A stretch of DNA of 64,000 nt from Halorubrum sp. 2020YC2 (GTDB lineage Archaea; Halobacteriota; Halobacteria; Halobacteriales; Haloferacaceae): NCBI RefSeq assembly GCF_018623055.1, contig NZ_CP076019.1, positions 992,001-1,056,000 of the forward strand. The letters are read 5' to 3'. This document shows, piece after piece, positions 100 through 57,058 of the stretch; position 1 is the stretch's first letter; each line of letters begins with the position of its first letter. The notes beneath the pieces were generated by a model that made no database searches, was not told where the DNA came from, and saw nothing but the letters and a program-made list of their open reading frames with translations. Both the position numbers and the translations under genes were made by a program.

Positions 100-500
100 G
101 GATTTGCGTTGGGCACCTCTGAAGCCCCGGTCGCTCACTTATAAATAGCTGACAGCGGATCGGCGGCGAACACTTCCAAAACCCCAGTCGCTCCCTTTTA
201 AATCGTTGCTGGCGGATCACCGGAGACCTCCTCCAAAGCCCCAGCCGCGAGGACAGCGCACACTCGTTGCGCTCCTCGCTCGTTCGCTTCGCTCCCTCGC
301 TGCGGTGCTTACGTCGTCTGCGCTGTCCTCGCGGCTGCCCCTTTGAGTCCCGCCCCGCCCAGCACAGCACCGCAGCCTCTCACCTCCCCAGCCTCGTCGG
401 CCGGCCTCCGCTTCGCTCCGGCCGCCCGACTCCCTCGCGCGTGCTGCTCGGCCGCAGGGCGGCCTCGCAGGCACGCGCCACCGCCTCATTTATAAATGAG
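100..500. repeat. Dispersed structured repeat, copy A
   Basis: Non-coding element whose core (about 238-493) is clearly homologous to 13020-13283 in the same orientation. It holds a perfect 19-bp inverted repeat (242-260 with 319-337, 58-nt loop), a second hairpin (398-404 with 418-424) and a third (437-444 with 471-478, containing 450-455 with 459-464). It ends in a perfect 16-bp palindrome, CTCATTTATAAATGAG (485-500). Upstream, about 100-240 holds degenerate direct units of roughly 60-70 bp, each with a GCCCCAGTCGC-like block and, between them, CTTATAAAT or TTTTAAAT. Reading frames across it are arginine-rich and unlike proteins. Whether it is an RNA gene, a MITE-like element or a regulatory array is not known to me. 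Confidence 0.8.
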
Positions 501-12929: not shown

Positions 12930-13290
12930 AACCGCTTCGCAATGACGTCCGTCGAAGCCCCAGCCGCTCGGCTGTACGCTTTCACTTATAAGTCCTCGAT
13001 CGGCACCGACACCATCGAAGCCCCAGTCGCGAGGACGGCGCACGCTCGCTGCGGTCCTCACTCGGTCGCTCACTATGTTCGCTCCCTCGTTGTGGTCCTT
13101 ACGTCGCCTGCGCCGTCCTCGTGACTGCCCCTTCGAGTCCCACCCCGCACAGCACCGCAACCGCACCTCACGCCTCCCCAGCCTCGTCGGCCTCCCTACG
13201 GTCGGCCGACTCCCTCGCGCGTGCTCCTCGCGGTCGCCGAGGGCGGCCGCTCGCAGGCACGCGCCACCGCGTTCATTTATAAAAGCGATC
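12930..13290. repeat. Dispersed structured repeat, copy B
   Basis: Second copy of the element at 100-500, same orientation. The stem is 13024-13042 with 13109-13127: 18 Watson-Crick pairs and one G-T. Compared with copy A, two stem positions have changed on both arms so that pairing is kept (C-G to T-A, and A-T to G-C). The second hairpin is 13186-13192 with 13204-13210; the third is 13217-13224 with 13257-13264, enclosing a 9-bp stem (13230-13238 with 13242-13250). It ends in TTCATTTATAAAA, like copy A. Upstream, 12942-13020 has two leader units with a GAAGCCCCAG block around CTTATAAGT. No protein gene is supported here. Confidence 0.8.
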
Positions 13291-13351: not shown

Positions 13352-14632
13352 CTACGGCCGCGTCTCCGCGACCCGCCGGATCGCGCCGGCTATCACGTCG
13401 ATACCGATCGCGATGTCGTCCTCGACGACGTCGAAGTCGCTCGTGTGGTGGCCGCCGGGGTGGTCGGTGCCGACGCCGAGGTAGCAGGCGAGGCCGCCCC
13501 GGTCCTGAACGTAGTTCATCAGGTAGGTGGCGTCCTCGGAGCCGCCGAGGTCGTCGCTGTCGACGATGCTCGTGACGCCCGCCACGTCGCCCGCGGACTC
13601 GCGGACGAGACCGGCGAGCGCGTCGTCGCTCGACGCGCTGGGCGCCTCCCCGAGCGTCGATACCTCGACCTCGCAGTCGTGCATCTCGGCGGCCGAGCGC
13701 AAGATTCGGTCGGCGTGATCGGACATGTACTCGGCCAGCTCCGTCGTCTGCCCGCGCAGTTCGCCCTCGATGTGCGACTCCTCGGGGATGATGTTCGTCG
13801 CAGTGCCGCCGCCGACGAGCCCGGCGTTCACTCGGGTGGGGCCGTCGGCGTGTCTCGGGATGGCGTAGAGGTTCTGGATCGCGGCCGCCATCGCCTGAAC
13901 CGCGTTCCGGCCCTGCTCGGGGCGCGCCCCGGCGTGGGCGGGCTCGCCCTCGAACTCCGCGAGCAGGTGCCGCACCGCGAGGAACCCCTCGACGCCGCAG
14001 ACGACCTCGCCGGACGGGTGGTCCAGCCCGACGTGGACCGCGTAGAGGTAGTCGACGTCGTCGAGGTGGCCCGACTCTGCCATCGGCTTGCCGCCGGCGA
14101 CCTGCTCTTCGCCCGGCTGGAAGAACACCTTCAGCGTGCCGGCGAAGTCGGAGTCGAGGACGGCGTCGAGCGCGCCGAGGCCCATGGTGGCGTGGGCGTC
14201 GTGGCCGCAGGCGTGCATGAACCCCTCGTGTTCGGAGCGGAACCCCTCCCCGGCCGGGACGTGGTCGCCCGACTCCGACTCCGTGATCGGGAGCCCGTCG
14301 ATGTCGACGCGCAGGCCGACCACGGGGCCGGCGCCGCGCTCGACGACCGCGACGCAGCCGGTGTAGCCGCCCGAAAGCTGTTCGAGAATCTCGGGGTCCG
14401 CGCCCGCCTCGCGGGCCTGCCCTTCCCACTCCGCCAGCTCCTCGTCGTCGGGGACGTTCAGGCGCTCGTCGGTCGCTAACGCCTCCGGTCCGACGTGGAG
14501 TTCCGTGAGGTCGCGCTCGCGGAGCGCCTCCACGATGCGGGCGGTGGTGTAGAACTCGCGCCACGCCGGCTCCGGGTGGCGGTGGAGGTCGCGGCGGAAC
14601 GCGCGGTACTCGTCGTCGTCGAGAGCGCTCAT
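13352..14632 (-). CDS. M20-family amidohydrolase (AbgA/IAA-amino acid hydrolase-like)
   Basis: A 426-residue M20D-type metallo-amidohydrolase. Metal-site motifs are HRHPEPAWREFYTT near residue 18, HACGHDAHATMGLG (about 140) and FFQPGEEQVAGG (about 170) with the catalytic glutamate; GVGTDHPGGHHTSDFDV near the end holds a further histidine ligand. The spacing of the first region (a long insert with a loop at about 60-85) resembles the aminobenzoyl-glutamate hydrolase subunit A group more than simple IAA hydrolases. It releases an amino acid or acyl group from an N-acyl amino acid; the substrate is unknown. The ATG at 14632 is the family start. Confidence 0.88.
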   Translation of the reverse strand: MSALDDDEYRAFRRDLHRHPEPAWREFYTTARIVEALRERDLTELHVGPEALATDERLNVPDDEELAEWEGQAREAGADPEILEQLSGGYTGCVAVVERGAGPVVGLRVDIDGLPITESESGDHVPAGEGFRSEHEGFMHACGHDAHATMGLGALDAVLDSDFAGTLKVFFQPGEEQVAGGKPMAESGHLDDVDYLYAVHVGLDHPSGEVVCGVEGFLAVRHLLAEFEGEPAHAGARPEQGRNAVQAMAAAIQNLYAIPRHADGPTRVNAGLVGGGTATNIIPEESHIEGELRGQTTELAEYMSDHADRILRSAAEMHDCEVEVSTLGEAPSASSDDALAGLVRESAGDVAGVTSIVDSDDLGGSEDATYLMNYVQDRGGLACYLGVGTDHPGGHHTSDFDVVEDDIAIGIDVIAGAIRRVAETRP

Positions 14633-24291: not shown

Positions 24292-24354
24292 TCTGATCCC
24301 GACCGCCGTCGCGTCCGGCACCGCTCAGGCGGACTCGACCCGGTGACCTCGAAC

Positions 24355-24449
24355 CGCTCGCCCCGTTCTCGACCGCCCGCCCCGTTCTCGACCGCCCGCC
24401 CCGTTCTCGACCGCCCGCCCCGTTCTCGACCGCTCGCCCCGTTCTCGAC
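24355..24449. repeat. 19-bp tandem repeat, five copies
   Basis: Five head-to-tail units of 19 bp (CGCCCGCCCCGTTCTCGAC or with one C/T change), plus a degenerate start of a sixth. It fills the space between two convergent genes and stops 8 nt short of the DUF35 gene's stop. Confidence 0.92.
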
Positions 24450-24457
24450 CGCCCGTC

Positions 24458-24889
24458 TCAGTCACCCGTCGCGGGGCGGAAGACGACGAGTCGTTCGCCG
24501 TCGGTGACGCGCTCTCCGACCTCGACCGCGACCCGGTCGCCGGTCTCGACCTCGGGCGTCGCGTCGCCCTCGGGGTCGCCGTCGCGGACGATCCCGGTCA
24601 GCCGCGTCGGGCCGAAGTCGACCACCGCGGTCGCGTACGGCGCGTCGTCCGCGAAGCGCGGCGAGGGGACGTGAACGACGCTGTGCGCCTCGACGGTCCC
24701 CGTCTCGTCGAGGGGATCGCGAGAGAGGTCTGTCGACCCGCACTCGGGGCACACCCGGCGCGGCGGGAGCGACCCGTGCCCGCGCGGGCAGGTCAGCGCG
24801 AACCCGTCGTCGTCCGCCAGCGCGTCGAGCCACTCGGCGTACTCCCGGTCGGTCGGGACCCCCGGGTCTCCCCCGTCCTCGTCGCTCAT
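24458..24889 (-). CDS. Zn-ribbon/OB-fold (DUF35-type) thiolase partner
   Basis: A 143-residue protein with an N-terminal rubredoxin-like zinc ribbon (TCPRGHGSLPPRRVCPECGST, four Cys/His candidates) and a C-terminal OB fold (TGTVEAHSVVHVPSPRFADD, then TRLTGIVRDG and GDRVAVEVGE). In archaea such proteins bind thiolases and channel acyl-CoA. It overlaps the end of the thiolase gene by 4 nt on the same strand, so the two are co-translated. The start at 24889 gives the standard length. Confidence 0.88.
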   Translation of the reverse strand: MSDEDGGDPGVPTDREYAEWLDALADDDGFALTCPRGHGSLPPRRVCPECGSTDLSRDPLDETGTVEAHSVVHVPSPRFADDAPYATAVVDFGPTRLTGIVRDGDPEGDATPEVETGDRVAVEVGERVTDGERLVVFRPATGD

Positions 24890-53145: not shown

Positions 53146-54123
53146 ATGAGCGAGAACCTTCGAACGTACACGGCAGAGACCGTCGACGACGAGAGCGAGA
53201 CCGAGTCGGAAACCGAGGAAGAGGAGCTTCGGTGTCCCGAGTGCGGCGGCCAGTTAGCGACGGACACGGAACACGGCGAGACCGTCTGCGTCGACTGCGG
53301 GCTCGTCGTCGAGGAGGACGAGATCGACCGCGGGCCGGAGTGGCGGGCGTTCGACTCCAAGGAGAAGGATAACAAGTCGCGGGTCGGGGCCCCGACGACG
53401 AACATGATGCACGACAAGGGGCTCTCGACGAACATCGGCTGGCAGGACAAAGACGCCTACGGCAAGTCGCTGTCCAGCCGCCAGCGCGAGAAGATGCAGC
53501 GGCTGCGGACGTGGAACGAGCGGTTCCGCACCCGCGACTCCAAGGAGCGCAATCTCAAGCAGGCGCTCGGTGAGATCGACCGCATGGCCAGCGCACTCGG
53601 CCTCCCGGACAACGTCCGCGAGACCGCTAGCGTCATCTACCGCCGCGCGCTCGACGAGGACCTGCTCCCCGGTCGCTCCATCGAGGGCGTCTCGACGTCG
53701 TCGCTGTACGCGGCCGCCCGGCAGGCGGGAACGCCGCGCAGCCTCGACGAGATAGCGGCCGTCTCCCGGGTCGAGAAAGACGAGATCGCCCGGACGTACC
53801 GATACGTCGTCCGCGAGCTGAAACTGGAGATCCAGCCCGCGGACCCCGAGAGCTACGTCCCGCGGTTCGCCTCCGACCTCGGCCTCTCGGACGAGGCCGA
53901 GCGCCGCGCCCGCAGCCTGCTCGACACGGCGAAGGAACAGGGGATCCACTCCGGGAAGTCGCCGGTCGGGCTCGCCGCCGCCGCCGTCTACGCCGCCTCA
54001 CTGCTCGTCAACGAGAAGGTGACCCAGAGCGAGGTGAGCGAGGTCGCGAACATCAGCGAGGTCACCATCCGAAACCGGTACCACGAGCTCCTCGAGGCCG
54101 AGGACTCGGTCGCGCTGAACTGA
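53146..54123 (+). CDS. tfb: Transcription initiation factor TFB
   Basis: A 325-residue TFB, which with TBP recruits archaeal RNA polymerase to promoters. An acidic head is followed by a zinc ribbon (Cys30, Cys33, Cys48, Cys51), the B-finger region (GPEWRAFDSKEKDNKSRVG), and two cyclin folds (about 120-215 and 215-320; DEIAAVSRVEKDEIARTYRY and EVSEVANISEVTIRNRYHEL recognition helices). Haloarchaea encode several TFBs; which paralogue this is cannot be told here. It is followed directly by a tandem repeat. Confidence 0.97.
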   Translation: MSENLRTYTAETVDDESETESETEEEELRCPECGGQLATDTEHGETVCVDCGLVVEEDEIDRGPEWRAFDSKEKDNKSRVGAPTTNMMHDKGLSTNIGWQDKDAYGKSLSSRQREKMQRLRTWNERFRTRDSKERNLKQALGEIDRMASALGLPDNVRETASVIYRRALDEDLLPGRSIEGVSTSSLYAAARQAGTPRSLDEIAAVSRVEKDEIARTYRYVVRELKLEIQPADPESYVPRFASDLGLSDEAERRARSLLDTAKEQGIHSGKSPVGLAAAAVYAASLLVNEKVTQSEVSEVANISEVTIRNRYHELLEAEDSVALN

Positions 54124-54190
54124 CGTCCCTCTTCTGACGCCCCTCTTCTGACGTCCCTCTTCTGACGTCCCTCTTCTGACGCCCCTCTTC
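54121..54190. repeat. 14-bp tandem repeat, five copies, starting at the TFB stop codon
   Basis: Five units of TGACGTCCCTCTTC (some with C for T at one position), beginning with the TGA stop of the TFB gene, plus a partial sixth. It fills the 3' region before the Nudix gene. Confidence 0.95.
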
Positions 54191-54263
54191 TGACGCGTCT
54201 CGCTCTCGTCTCGGCGTTCGTCCGAGCCGAAACCGCGAAGGCGACGCGTCGCCACCCGAACCC

Positions 54264-54817: not shown

Positions 54818-57058
54818 ATGGACGCACAGCGAAGGGAAGCGATTGCCGAGTGGGACGACCGCTCGTTCTCCGACGGGTTCGCGGGGCTCGGACGGGTCGT
54901 CAGCGACGGGTTTTCCGGCGCGGCGACGGACGGGACCGGCTGGCTCTTCCTCGTCGACGGGCAGGTCGTCGGCGTCGTCGACGGGACGCTCGACGCCTTC
55001 GCCGACGCCTCGGGGACGGTCTACCGGGCCCCGGACGACGCGCTCCCCGTGCTCTTCGCGATGCAGGAGCTGGGCGGCGAGCCGCGGGCGAAGTACTACA
55101 CCAACGACACGCCGCTGACCGAGGCCGACCGCAAGCTCTCGCAGGGGGGGTTCACCGGCTACATCGAGCTGTCGGAGAACGTCCTCTCCGGCGACTACTA
55201 CGTCGCCTACACGGGCGGCGAGTCGATGGCGGCGGCGTACGTCGGCAACGCCCGACGGCTGGAGACCGGCGACGAGGCGTTCGACCTCGCCGCCGACGAG
55301 GTCGGCATCTACACCGTCTACGAGGTCGACCTCGACGTTCGGCCGCTCCCGGACGGGGACGGCGCGAGCGACTCCGCGGCCGCGACCGACGCCGACGGCG
55401 CGTCCGACTCGGGCGCCGCAACCGACGCGGACGCGGACCCGAGCGACGCGGACGAGAAGCCGGCCGCCGGCGTCGAGGACGTCGGAATCGACCGCGAGGC
55501 GGAGGACGGCGACGAGGGGGAGCCGGCGACCGAGGACGACGCCGGCACCCCGACGGACCCCGCTGCCACCGGTCCGACCGACGGCCGAGGTTCCGACCCG
55601 GCGGGGTCGGCCCGGAACGGCGGGGCGACCGCGGCGGACCGCTCGAACGGAGCCGAAGCCGGGGGCGTCCCGGCCGACGACGCGGAGGCGGGCGGCGAGG
55701 CCGGCGACGCCGACGGGGCGGGACCGGCCGCGGTCCGGATCGAAGACGACGACGGCGCCGGTCAAGTCCCCGCCGACTCGCGCGGGGTCGACCCGGACGC
55801 CGCCGACGCGCCAGACTCCGAGGATGTCTTCTCGGAGGAGGCCGAGTGGCGCGAACAGAAGTCGATCCCGGCGCTCGACCCCTCCGAGGCGGGCGACGAG
55901 GACCGTGCGACGGACGACCGACGCGACGCGTCGTCGCAGCGCTCTCGGTCGGTCGACGAACGCGCTCGGTCCGAGCGGGGCTCGTCGGGAGCGAACGGCG
56001 GGTCGCCGTCGCCCCGTTCGACCGGGCGGTCGGCGTCGACGCCGTCGGCGGTCTCGAAGCGCGACGCGGGCGGTGGTGCGACTGGCAGCGCGGACCAGGA
56101 TCGGATCCGGAAGCTCGAAACCGCCCTGGAGGAGACCGAAACGGAGCGACAGTCGCTGGCCGACGAGGTCGAGCGGCTTGCGGCCGAACGCGACGAAATC
56201 GGGGCCGAGCGCGACGATCTGGCCGACGAAGTCGAGCGGCTCGAGGCCGAGACCGACGACCTCAGAGAGGAGCGCGACCGGCTTCGCCGCGAGCTCTCGA
56301 ACGCGAAAGAGCGGCTCCCGGACGCGGAGCGGACGCTCACGCCCCCCGAGGCGCGCAACGGGACGAACCTGTTCATCAGGTACGAGTCGAAGGAGGGTGC
56401 GACGCTGGCCGACGCTCACGAGGGAGGCGTCGACCGCGAGGCGCTCCGCGAGAACCTGCGGGTCGAACACCACACGAGCTTCGAGACCGACGGGCTGGCG
56501 GTGGACGGGCGGCCGTTCGAGGAGTTCCTCGAGGACACCATCGAGTACGGGTTCACCCGGTGGCTCGTCGAGGACCTCCCGTTCGAGGTCCGCGGGACCG
56601 GAAACGAGGGGAAGCTCCGCGACCTCTACGACGCGCTCCCCGAGATCGACCGCGCCGAGATCGGGGGGACCGTGTCGATCCAGCTCCGGGAAGGCGGCGA
56701 GGAGACCCGCGAACAGCGGGCGTTCGATCTCGTGTTGCGCGACCGGATGGGACATCCCCTGTTCGTCGCCGACCTGAACGACAGCCGGGACCCCACGGCG
56801 GAGGGGACGCTGGAGTCGCTCGTCGAGAACGGACGCGACGTCGCGGACTCGAACGAGACGTTCGCCGGCGCGTTCGCGGTGACGGAGAGCTTCTTCGAGC
56901 CGGGCGCCTTAGAGACCGCCAGCGACGCGGTCGGCGGCGGCCTGCTCAGCCGGTCGAAACGAGCGAGCTTCGTGAAGCTATCGCGCAAGCGGGGGTACCA
57001 CCTGTGCCTCGTCGAGGCGCGCGACGGCGGCTTCCACATGACGGTCCCCGACCTGTAG
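54818..57058 (+). CDS. Large protein with acidic linker, coiled coil and C-terminal domain, unknown function
   Basis: A 746-residue protein. Residues 1-170 form a folded N-terminal domain (GWLFLVDGQVVGVVDGTLDA, DYYVAYTGGESMAAAYVGNA). About 175-420 is a highly acidic Ala/Asp/Gly low-complexity linker. About 430-500 is a coiled coil (RIRKLETALEETETERQSLA onward). The C-terminal 510-746 domain has FEEFLEDTIEYGFTRWLVED, AFDLVLRDRMGHPLFVADLN and GLLSRSKRASFVKLSRK, a pattern weakly reminiscent of a degenerate nuclease-like fold, without a clear catalytic set. I do not recognise the family. It stands alone, before a wHTH gene on the other strand. Confidence 0.8.
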   Translation: MDAQRREAIAEWDDRSFSDGFAGLGRVVSDGFSGAATDGTGWLFLVDGQVVGVVDGTLDAFADASGTVYRAPDDALPVLFAMQELGGEPRAKYYTNDTPLTEADRKLSQGGFTGYIELSENVLSGDYYVAYTGGESMAAAYVGNARRLETGDEAFDLAADEVGIYTVYEVDLDVRPLPDGDGASDSAAATDADGASDSGAATDADADPSDADEKPAAGVEDVGIDREAEDGDEGEPATEDDAGTPTDPAATGPTDGRGSDPAGSARNGGATAADRSNGAEAGGVPADDAEAGGEAGDADGAGPAAVRIEDDDGAGQVPADSRGVDPDAADAPDSEDVFSEEAEWREQKSIPALDPSEAGDEDRATDDRRDASSQRSRSVDERARSERGSSGANGGSPSPRSTGRSASTPSAVSKRDAGGGATGSADQDRIRKLETALEETETERQSLADEVERLAAERDEIGAERDDLADEVERLEAETDDLREERDRLRRELSNAKERLPDAERTLTPPEARNGTNLFIRYESKEGATLADAHEGGVDREALRENLRVEHHTSFETDGLAVDGRPFEEFLEDTIEYGFTRWLVEDLPFEVRGTGNEGKLRDLYDALPEIDRAEIGGTVSIQLREGGEETREQRAFDLVLRDRMGHPLFVADLNDSRDPTAEGTLESLVENGRDVADSNETFAGAFAVTESFFEPGALETASDAVGGGLLSRSKRASFVKLSRKRGYHLCLVEARDGGFHMTVPDL

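Follow-up and report, generated by a model that had tools for sequence, protein, structure and literature searches.

The two multi-hairpin elements in the 64,000-nucleotide stretch of Halorubrum sp. 2020YC2 analyzed here (hereafter the window) belong to a high-copy repeat that is spread over the chromosome and over most genera of the order. We judge it somewhat better than an even chance that this is a dispersed, structured, non-coding intergenic family, class-wide in haloarchaea and similar in organization to the REPs and REPINs of bacteria, whose minus strand is folded as single-stranded DNA and whose copies convert one another at fixed sites. About 140 chromosomal copies, a hairpin fold maintained by compensated changes, genus-wide orthologous positions, and replacement of whole hairpins in place were observed directly, and the strand, the nucleic acid, and the exchange process are discussed below with their alternatives.

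Structure of the Element

Reading of 60-odd copies gave a common plan, which is, from 5' to 3', one to several 57-bp units, hairpin H1, a linker, hairpin H2, CTCCCTC, hairpin H3, CACCGC, and TTTATAAAT. Each 57-bp unit comprises a TTATAAAT-like box and the 5' arm motif AAAGCCCCAG, and the units within a single copy are sometimes near identical (e.g., copy L016), which suggests local duplication. The inner arm of H1 is built of two Watson-Crick pairs alternating with near-invariant TC/TC steps (tandem GA/GA on the minus strand), and its apex is frequently GCTTCGC (GCGAAGC on the minus strand). In eight copies (L011, L024, L028, L044, L049, L050, L055, and L195), inserts of approximately 50–60 bp consisting of two small hairpins were seen at varied points within H1, recalling the SMR-A inserts of PATE palindromes.

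Copy 1 lies on the plus strand and begins with two tandem 57-bp units at 127–238 (profile matches at 127–191 and from 182), each with the AT-rich TTATAAAT-like motif and a AAAGCCCCAG-like end. Its H1 (234–345), defined by sequence, folding, alignment, and covariation, consists of helix P1 (234–238/341–345), a CCC/CCC internal loop (239–241/338–340), helix P2 (242–260/319–337), and an inner arm with TC/TC mismatches, which are GA/GA on the minus strand. The linker (346–395), unpaired and conserved, runs from AGTCCCGCCCC to CACCTCCCCAGCCTC and holds C-tracts at 349–351 and 353–356 (G-tracts on the minus strand). It is followed by H2 (396–430; sequence, folding, and orthologue comparison), H3 with the arms GCGCGTGC/GCACGCGC (437–478; sequence, scan for the H3 core, and folding), and the terminal palindrome TTTATAAAT (485–500; sequence), to which no strand is assigned. 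Copy 2, also on the plus strand, comprises a 57-bp unit (12959–13015; profile match), H1 (13016–13135) with P1 at 13016–13020/13131–13135 and P2 at 13024–13042/13109–13127, H2 (13186–13210) and H3 (13217–13264), both from sequence and folding, and the terminal TTTATAAAA (13275–13284; sequence, strandless). The two copies fall into one repeat family (D14), with 81% identity over 135 bp.

The preliminary description of the window reported two homologous cores with a 19-bp stem and drew the element too small, as 57-bp units precede the core in both copies. Read directly from the sequence, the stem of copy 1 (242–260, CAGCCGCGAGGACAGCGCA, with 319–337, TGCGCTGTCCTCGCGGCTG) is a perfect 19 bp, and that of copy 2 (13024–13042, CAGTCGCGAGGACGGCGCA, with 13109–13127, TGCGCCGTCCTCGTGACTG) has 18 Watson-Crick pairs and one G·T. 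The two double-sided changes and the single wobble between the copies are exactly as described, H2 and H3 do stand in matching places in both, and a third double change was overlooked immediately outside the stem, in the outer helix P1, which is CAAAG/CTTTG in copy 1 and CGAAG/CTTCG in copy 2.

Conservation of the Fold

Both copies are more stable than their dinucleotide shuffles, with folding z-scores of -4.9 (copy 1) and -4.45 (copy 2), and none of 200 shuffles was as stable in either case. In the MAFFT alignment of 44 H1 sequences, 16 of the 29 predicted pairs show double-sided changes. Among 98 distinct Halorubrum-type sequences, 96.8% of cells pair, double-sided changes occur in 22 of 29 pairs, and covariation across the family scores 0.352, whereas shuffles averaged 0.118 and none of 500 reached the observed value; when the pairing partners were slid, the score was at most 0.052. 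The 98 copies from other haloarchaea gave 96.2% of cells paired, double-sided changes in 26 of 29 pairs, and a score of 0.578 against 0.144 for shuffled sequences. Because both 98-sequence alignments were fitted to a covariance model, more weight should be given to the slid controls and to the original MAFFT alignment. The double changes are not to be counted as independent selected events, because recombination between copies appears to move whole hairpins. Unpaired positions are also conserved within the genus, the C-tracts mostly at 97–100% and the TC/TC steps at about 91–100%.

Pairing is thus kept through double-sided changes both in Halorubrum-type copies and in those of other haloarchaea, and the structure proposed in the preliminary description is supported. 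Copies keep their intergenic places over evolutionary time while the hairpins change and still pair, and this suggests selection on the fold more than a one-off RNA gene.

Copy Number and Genomic Context

The covariance model of H1 (R1) gave 144 matches on the 3.06-Mb chromosome of the window's genome (G000) and at least 150 in a congener (G037), so that the element is a high-copy dispersed repeat and not the pair of copies that it had seemed. The H3 core was found at 100 chromosomal sites (54 forward and 46 reverse), compared with one for a reversed-pattern control. A simple mobile or decayed repeat had been expected to show many further copies without covariation; the many copies were found, while the covariation among them is strong. 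Of 147 genomes sampled from the order, 96 have H1 homologues detected with model R1, and these represent 41 of 56 genera. All matches listed for a strict H1 pattern over species genomes were from Halobacteria, including Haloarcula, Natrinema, Natronococcus, Halorussus, Halobaculum, Haloparvum, and Halonotius. Each Halorubrum-type copy consists of one H1-H2-H3 unit; in other haloarchaea the core mostly has only H1, and the H1-H2-H3 layout was seen in loci of families f3 and f6. An inverted partner lies within 150 bp upstream in 20 of 81 H1-only copies, 17 of these at 26–35 bp.

The copies are intergenic (66 in the window's genome, and 0 of 80 elsewhere overlapping a called gene), as judged from the calls of our own codon-usage caller and not from curated annotation. 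They occur in both orientations, with no consistent orientation relative to genes and no strand or replichore bias (78/72; runs z 1.2). Three plasmid records matched the window's form and eight the H1-only form, Halorubrum salinarum being among the sources, and phage records gave no match. A Pfam scan of 118 flanking proteins showed them to be diverse and housekeeping, with no transposase among the 25 commonest families, and the transposase-flanked arrangement considered at the outset was not seen.

Neighboring elements less than 3 kb apart are mostly head-to-head (minus then plus), in 9 of 11 cases in G000 and 12 of 15 in G037, and they often enclose single housekeeping genes, such as those predicted from their translations to be hisA, msrA, thi4, and ffh. 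Because the enclosed genes look like housekeeping genes, a partner gene between close elements was rejected.

A search of Rfam gave no match to the element, except for weak miRNA matches in copy L153 below the gathering score, in agreement with the preliminary description, which knew of no described family with this structure. Searches of open-access full text with organism terms and conserved strings likewise found no description of it.

Conserved Sites and Replaced Hairpins

Downstream of the window gene at 13352–14632, an element is present in the matching place and orientation in 16 of 30 congeneric loci. At a second orthologous site the position is occupied, in matching orientation, in 23 of 30, the loci without an element having a short gap, other neighbors, or a contig end. 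The copies of G037 lie at G000 positions in about 11 of 30 loci, against approximately 14 predicted for complete sharing of positions, since about 47% of the G000 copies were sampled. A clean empty site was not recovered in the species-level comparison, in which element-free sites have other neighbors or a decayed remnant. Copies L072 and L178 are decayed or internally deleted remnants at orthologous sites.

The hairpins at these sites are replaced in place, because hairpins at orthologous sites resemble one another no more closely than random paralogues do: identities are 0.75 and 0.69 for orthologues vs 0.71 for paralogues in H1, 0.60 and 0.64 vs 0.62 in H2, and 0.71 and 0.80 vs 0.74 in H3. 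Stem differences between orthologues are mostly double-sided (248 vs 65 in H1 and 234 vs 46 in H2, at the second site), and in the alignments complete hairpins and inserts are exchanged while the conserved segments on either side are identical. H1 is linked weakly to the other hairpins (Mantel r 0.12–0.19). From these replacement patterns we infer gene conversion among the copies. Identical H1, H2, or H3 cassettes shared between loci are very few, so such conversion must act on sub-segments or precede further change. Copies L052 and L192 carry the inner part of H1 in the opposite orientation to everything else in the element, which suggests recombination across the hairpin arms.

Comparison with Known Elements

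BOX elements of Streptococcus pneumoniae, from an unrelated domain of life, have a modular boxA-boxB-boxC sequence in which the number of internal repeat units varies and the fold is conserved, and the layout of the haloarchaeal element may be comparable. The subterminal hairpins of IS200/IS605 elements are strand-specific and single-stranded; the haloarchaeal fold would resemble them in this respect, whereas no transposase lies in or beside the element and several high-copy genomes lack Y1. Compensatory hairpin changes have been documented in bacterial REPINs (PMC3116915), and a dispersed hairpin repeat that shows them therefore has a precedent. The element resembles REPs and REPINs as a high-copy, extragenic palindrome dispersed between genes, with compensatory changes in its hairpins (PMC3116915), and the inverted pairs seen in a minority of H1-only copies may correspond to the REPIN doublets. 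It differs from them in its length of about 135–320 bp, its up to three hairpins and 57-bp tandem units, the replacement of its hairpins at fixed orthologous sites, and its independence from a resident Y1 gene, the RAYT association not being seen in three high-copy genomes. The PATEs of Haloquadratum, at about 180 per genome, are likewise non-coding and palindromic, and small hairpins are inserted within the hairpins of the element as SMR-A is within PATE palindromes (PMC3119063). However, H1 has no detectable kinship to IS605-type ends or the ends of Y1 loci, its positions are conserved between species, where strain-specific insertions would mark a PATE, and it was scarce on plasmids and not found in phages, whereas a PATE is present in one virus and one plasmid (PMC10544981). 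The element works most like the REPINs, yet it is a member of neither the REPIN nor the PATE family, because the RAYT association is wanting in three high-copy genomes, kinship to IS605 ends was undetected for H1, and its positions are stable between species.

These likenesses bear on whether the element is a non-autonomous mobile element (a MITE, PATE, or REPIN) that a single-strand transposase, of the IS200/IS605 type or another, continues to move in trans, an account that we regard as possible but doubtful. Dispersed, non-coding, palindromic, intergenic copies, some of them in inverted doublets, with a strand-specific fold as a single-strand transposase would predict, fit such an origin, and PATEs and SMRs are similarly abundant in Haloquadratum (PMC3119063). 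Against it stand the genus-wide conservation of positions, the scarcity on plasmids and absence from the phage records, and the housekeeping genes on the flanks. The Y1 transposase was rejected as resident partner, as it is absent from G002, G004, and G005, all with many copies, and no H1 was found at Y1 ends; at the eight Y1 loci scanned with model R1, which covers H1 only, no match was convincing (best E 0.07). Linkage to TnpB was also rejected, as strong H1 matches lie more than 1 kb from TnpB genes and G076 has 91 copies with no TnpB match.

Strand of the Folded Form

When distinct H1 outer stems were counted without alignment and read on the minus strand, G·T mismatches outnumbered A·C by 59 to 14 (18 vs 5 in copies of the genus and 41 vs 9 in others), and H2 showed no strand bias of its wobbles (14 vs 16). 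Strand-symmetric wobbles, as taken from alignment columns, were dropped after this count. The DNA fold energy is lower for the minus strand in 45 of 45 cases, and the conserved TC/TC positions, GA/GA on that strand, are a further signal of this kind. These sequence-based counts suggest that the minus strand of H1 is the single-stranded functional form, DNA or RNA; the G·T bias is compatible with both alike and cannot separate them. The pair of options offered in the preliminary description, a structured RNA or a DNA palindrome recognized by a protein, is still the right one.

A structured RNA transcribed from the minus strand of many copies, with its fold selected as RNA, would account for the wobble bias in the outer stem of H1 and for the tandem GA/GA positions, which are typical of RNA, and in Halorubrum-type copies the TTTATAAAT box stands directly upstream of H3 on the minus strand. 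We consider it unlikely: G·U makes up only about 2–3% of outer-stem pairs, Rfam has no match, copies are found in either orientation without a regular relation to genes, and 140 RNA genes of a single type would be unusual. In H1-only families no TATA-like enrichment or other promoter-like motif was found upstream on the minus strand, and this leans towards DNA over RNA.

Proposed Mechanism

In the reading that we favor, the selected form would be the single minus strand, most likely as DNA exposed during replication or repair. This strand would form one long hairpin, with Watson-Crick pairs and tandem GA/GA steps in alternation and frequently a GCGAAGC turn at the tip, and a candidate host or formerly mobile protein may bind it. 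No partner protein for the element, and none of the RAYT type, was identified among the genomes examined. With the invariant unpaired segments as anchors, gene conversion would let copies overwrite one another's hairpins, so that stems drift as whole self-complementary cassettes at positions that do not move.

The same exchanges could leave a neutral relic, in which hairpin-templated repair or template switching re-perfects the palindromes, together with gene conversion, and the fold is unselected. The replacement of whole hairpins and the two inverted H1 interiors do show recombination in the palindromes, and non-Watson-Crick pairs are rare on both strands. We nevertheless think this improbable, as copying of arms alone would not keep the C-tracts and TC/TC steps invariant, a strand bias of mismatches would be unexpected, and families f3 and f6 have loci with the three-hairpin layout again.

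Few positions in the family are as conserved as the four C-tracts at 239–241, 338–341, 349–351, and 353–356, which are G-tracts when read on the minus strand. As a long shot suggested by sequence only, these tracts (GGG.GGG.ACTSAAA.GGGG - hairpin - GGGG) might form a quadruplex-duplex hybrid in the molar-K+ cytoplasm and make the elements structural nodes of the chromosome; if so, the head-to-head bias around single housekeeping genes would reflect a role as insulator or boundary.

A bidirectional transcription terminator or stabilizer of mRNA 3' ends is very improbable: each copy in the window is situated 3' of a gene, and one is flanked by convergent genes, but the mild convergent excess in the window's genome (23/66 vs 12/60) is not significant (p = 0.075), and other haloarchaea show none (convergent 12, tandem 41, divergent 23, vs background 91, 277, 92), the latter counts also leading us to reject an orientation-specific terminator.

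Implications and Other Features of the Window

If the favored reading is right, a structured high-copy repeat that is ancient and apparently undescribed is present in most haloarchaea, and its sites last as long as the genus while the hairpins are rewritten. Gene conversion and selection for single-strand folds could then be followed in polyploid archaea as in a natural experiment, and there would be a testable entry to what recognizes the element. The family also cautions that compensatory changes in a multi-copy element need not imply an RNA gene.

The window further contains two short tandem arrays, at 24353–24474 with a period of 19 bp (ACCGCCCGCCCCGTTCTCG) and at 54106–54209 with a period of 14 bp (CTGACGYCCCTCTT), and a predicted tRNA-Ser (GGA) at 55230–55299.
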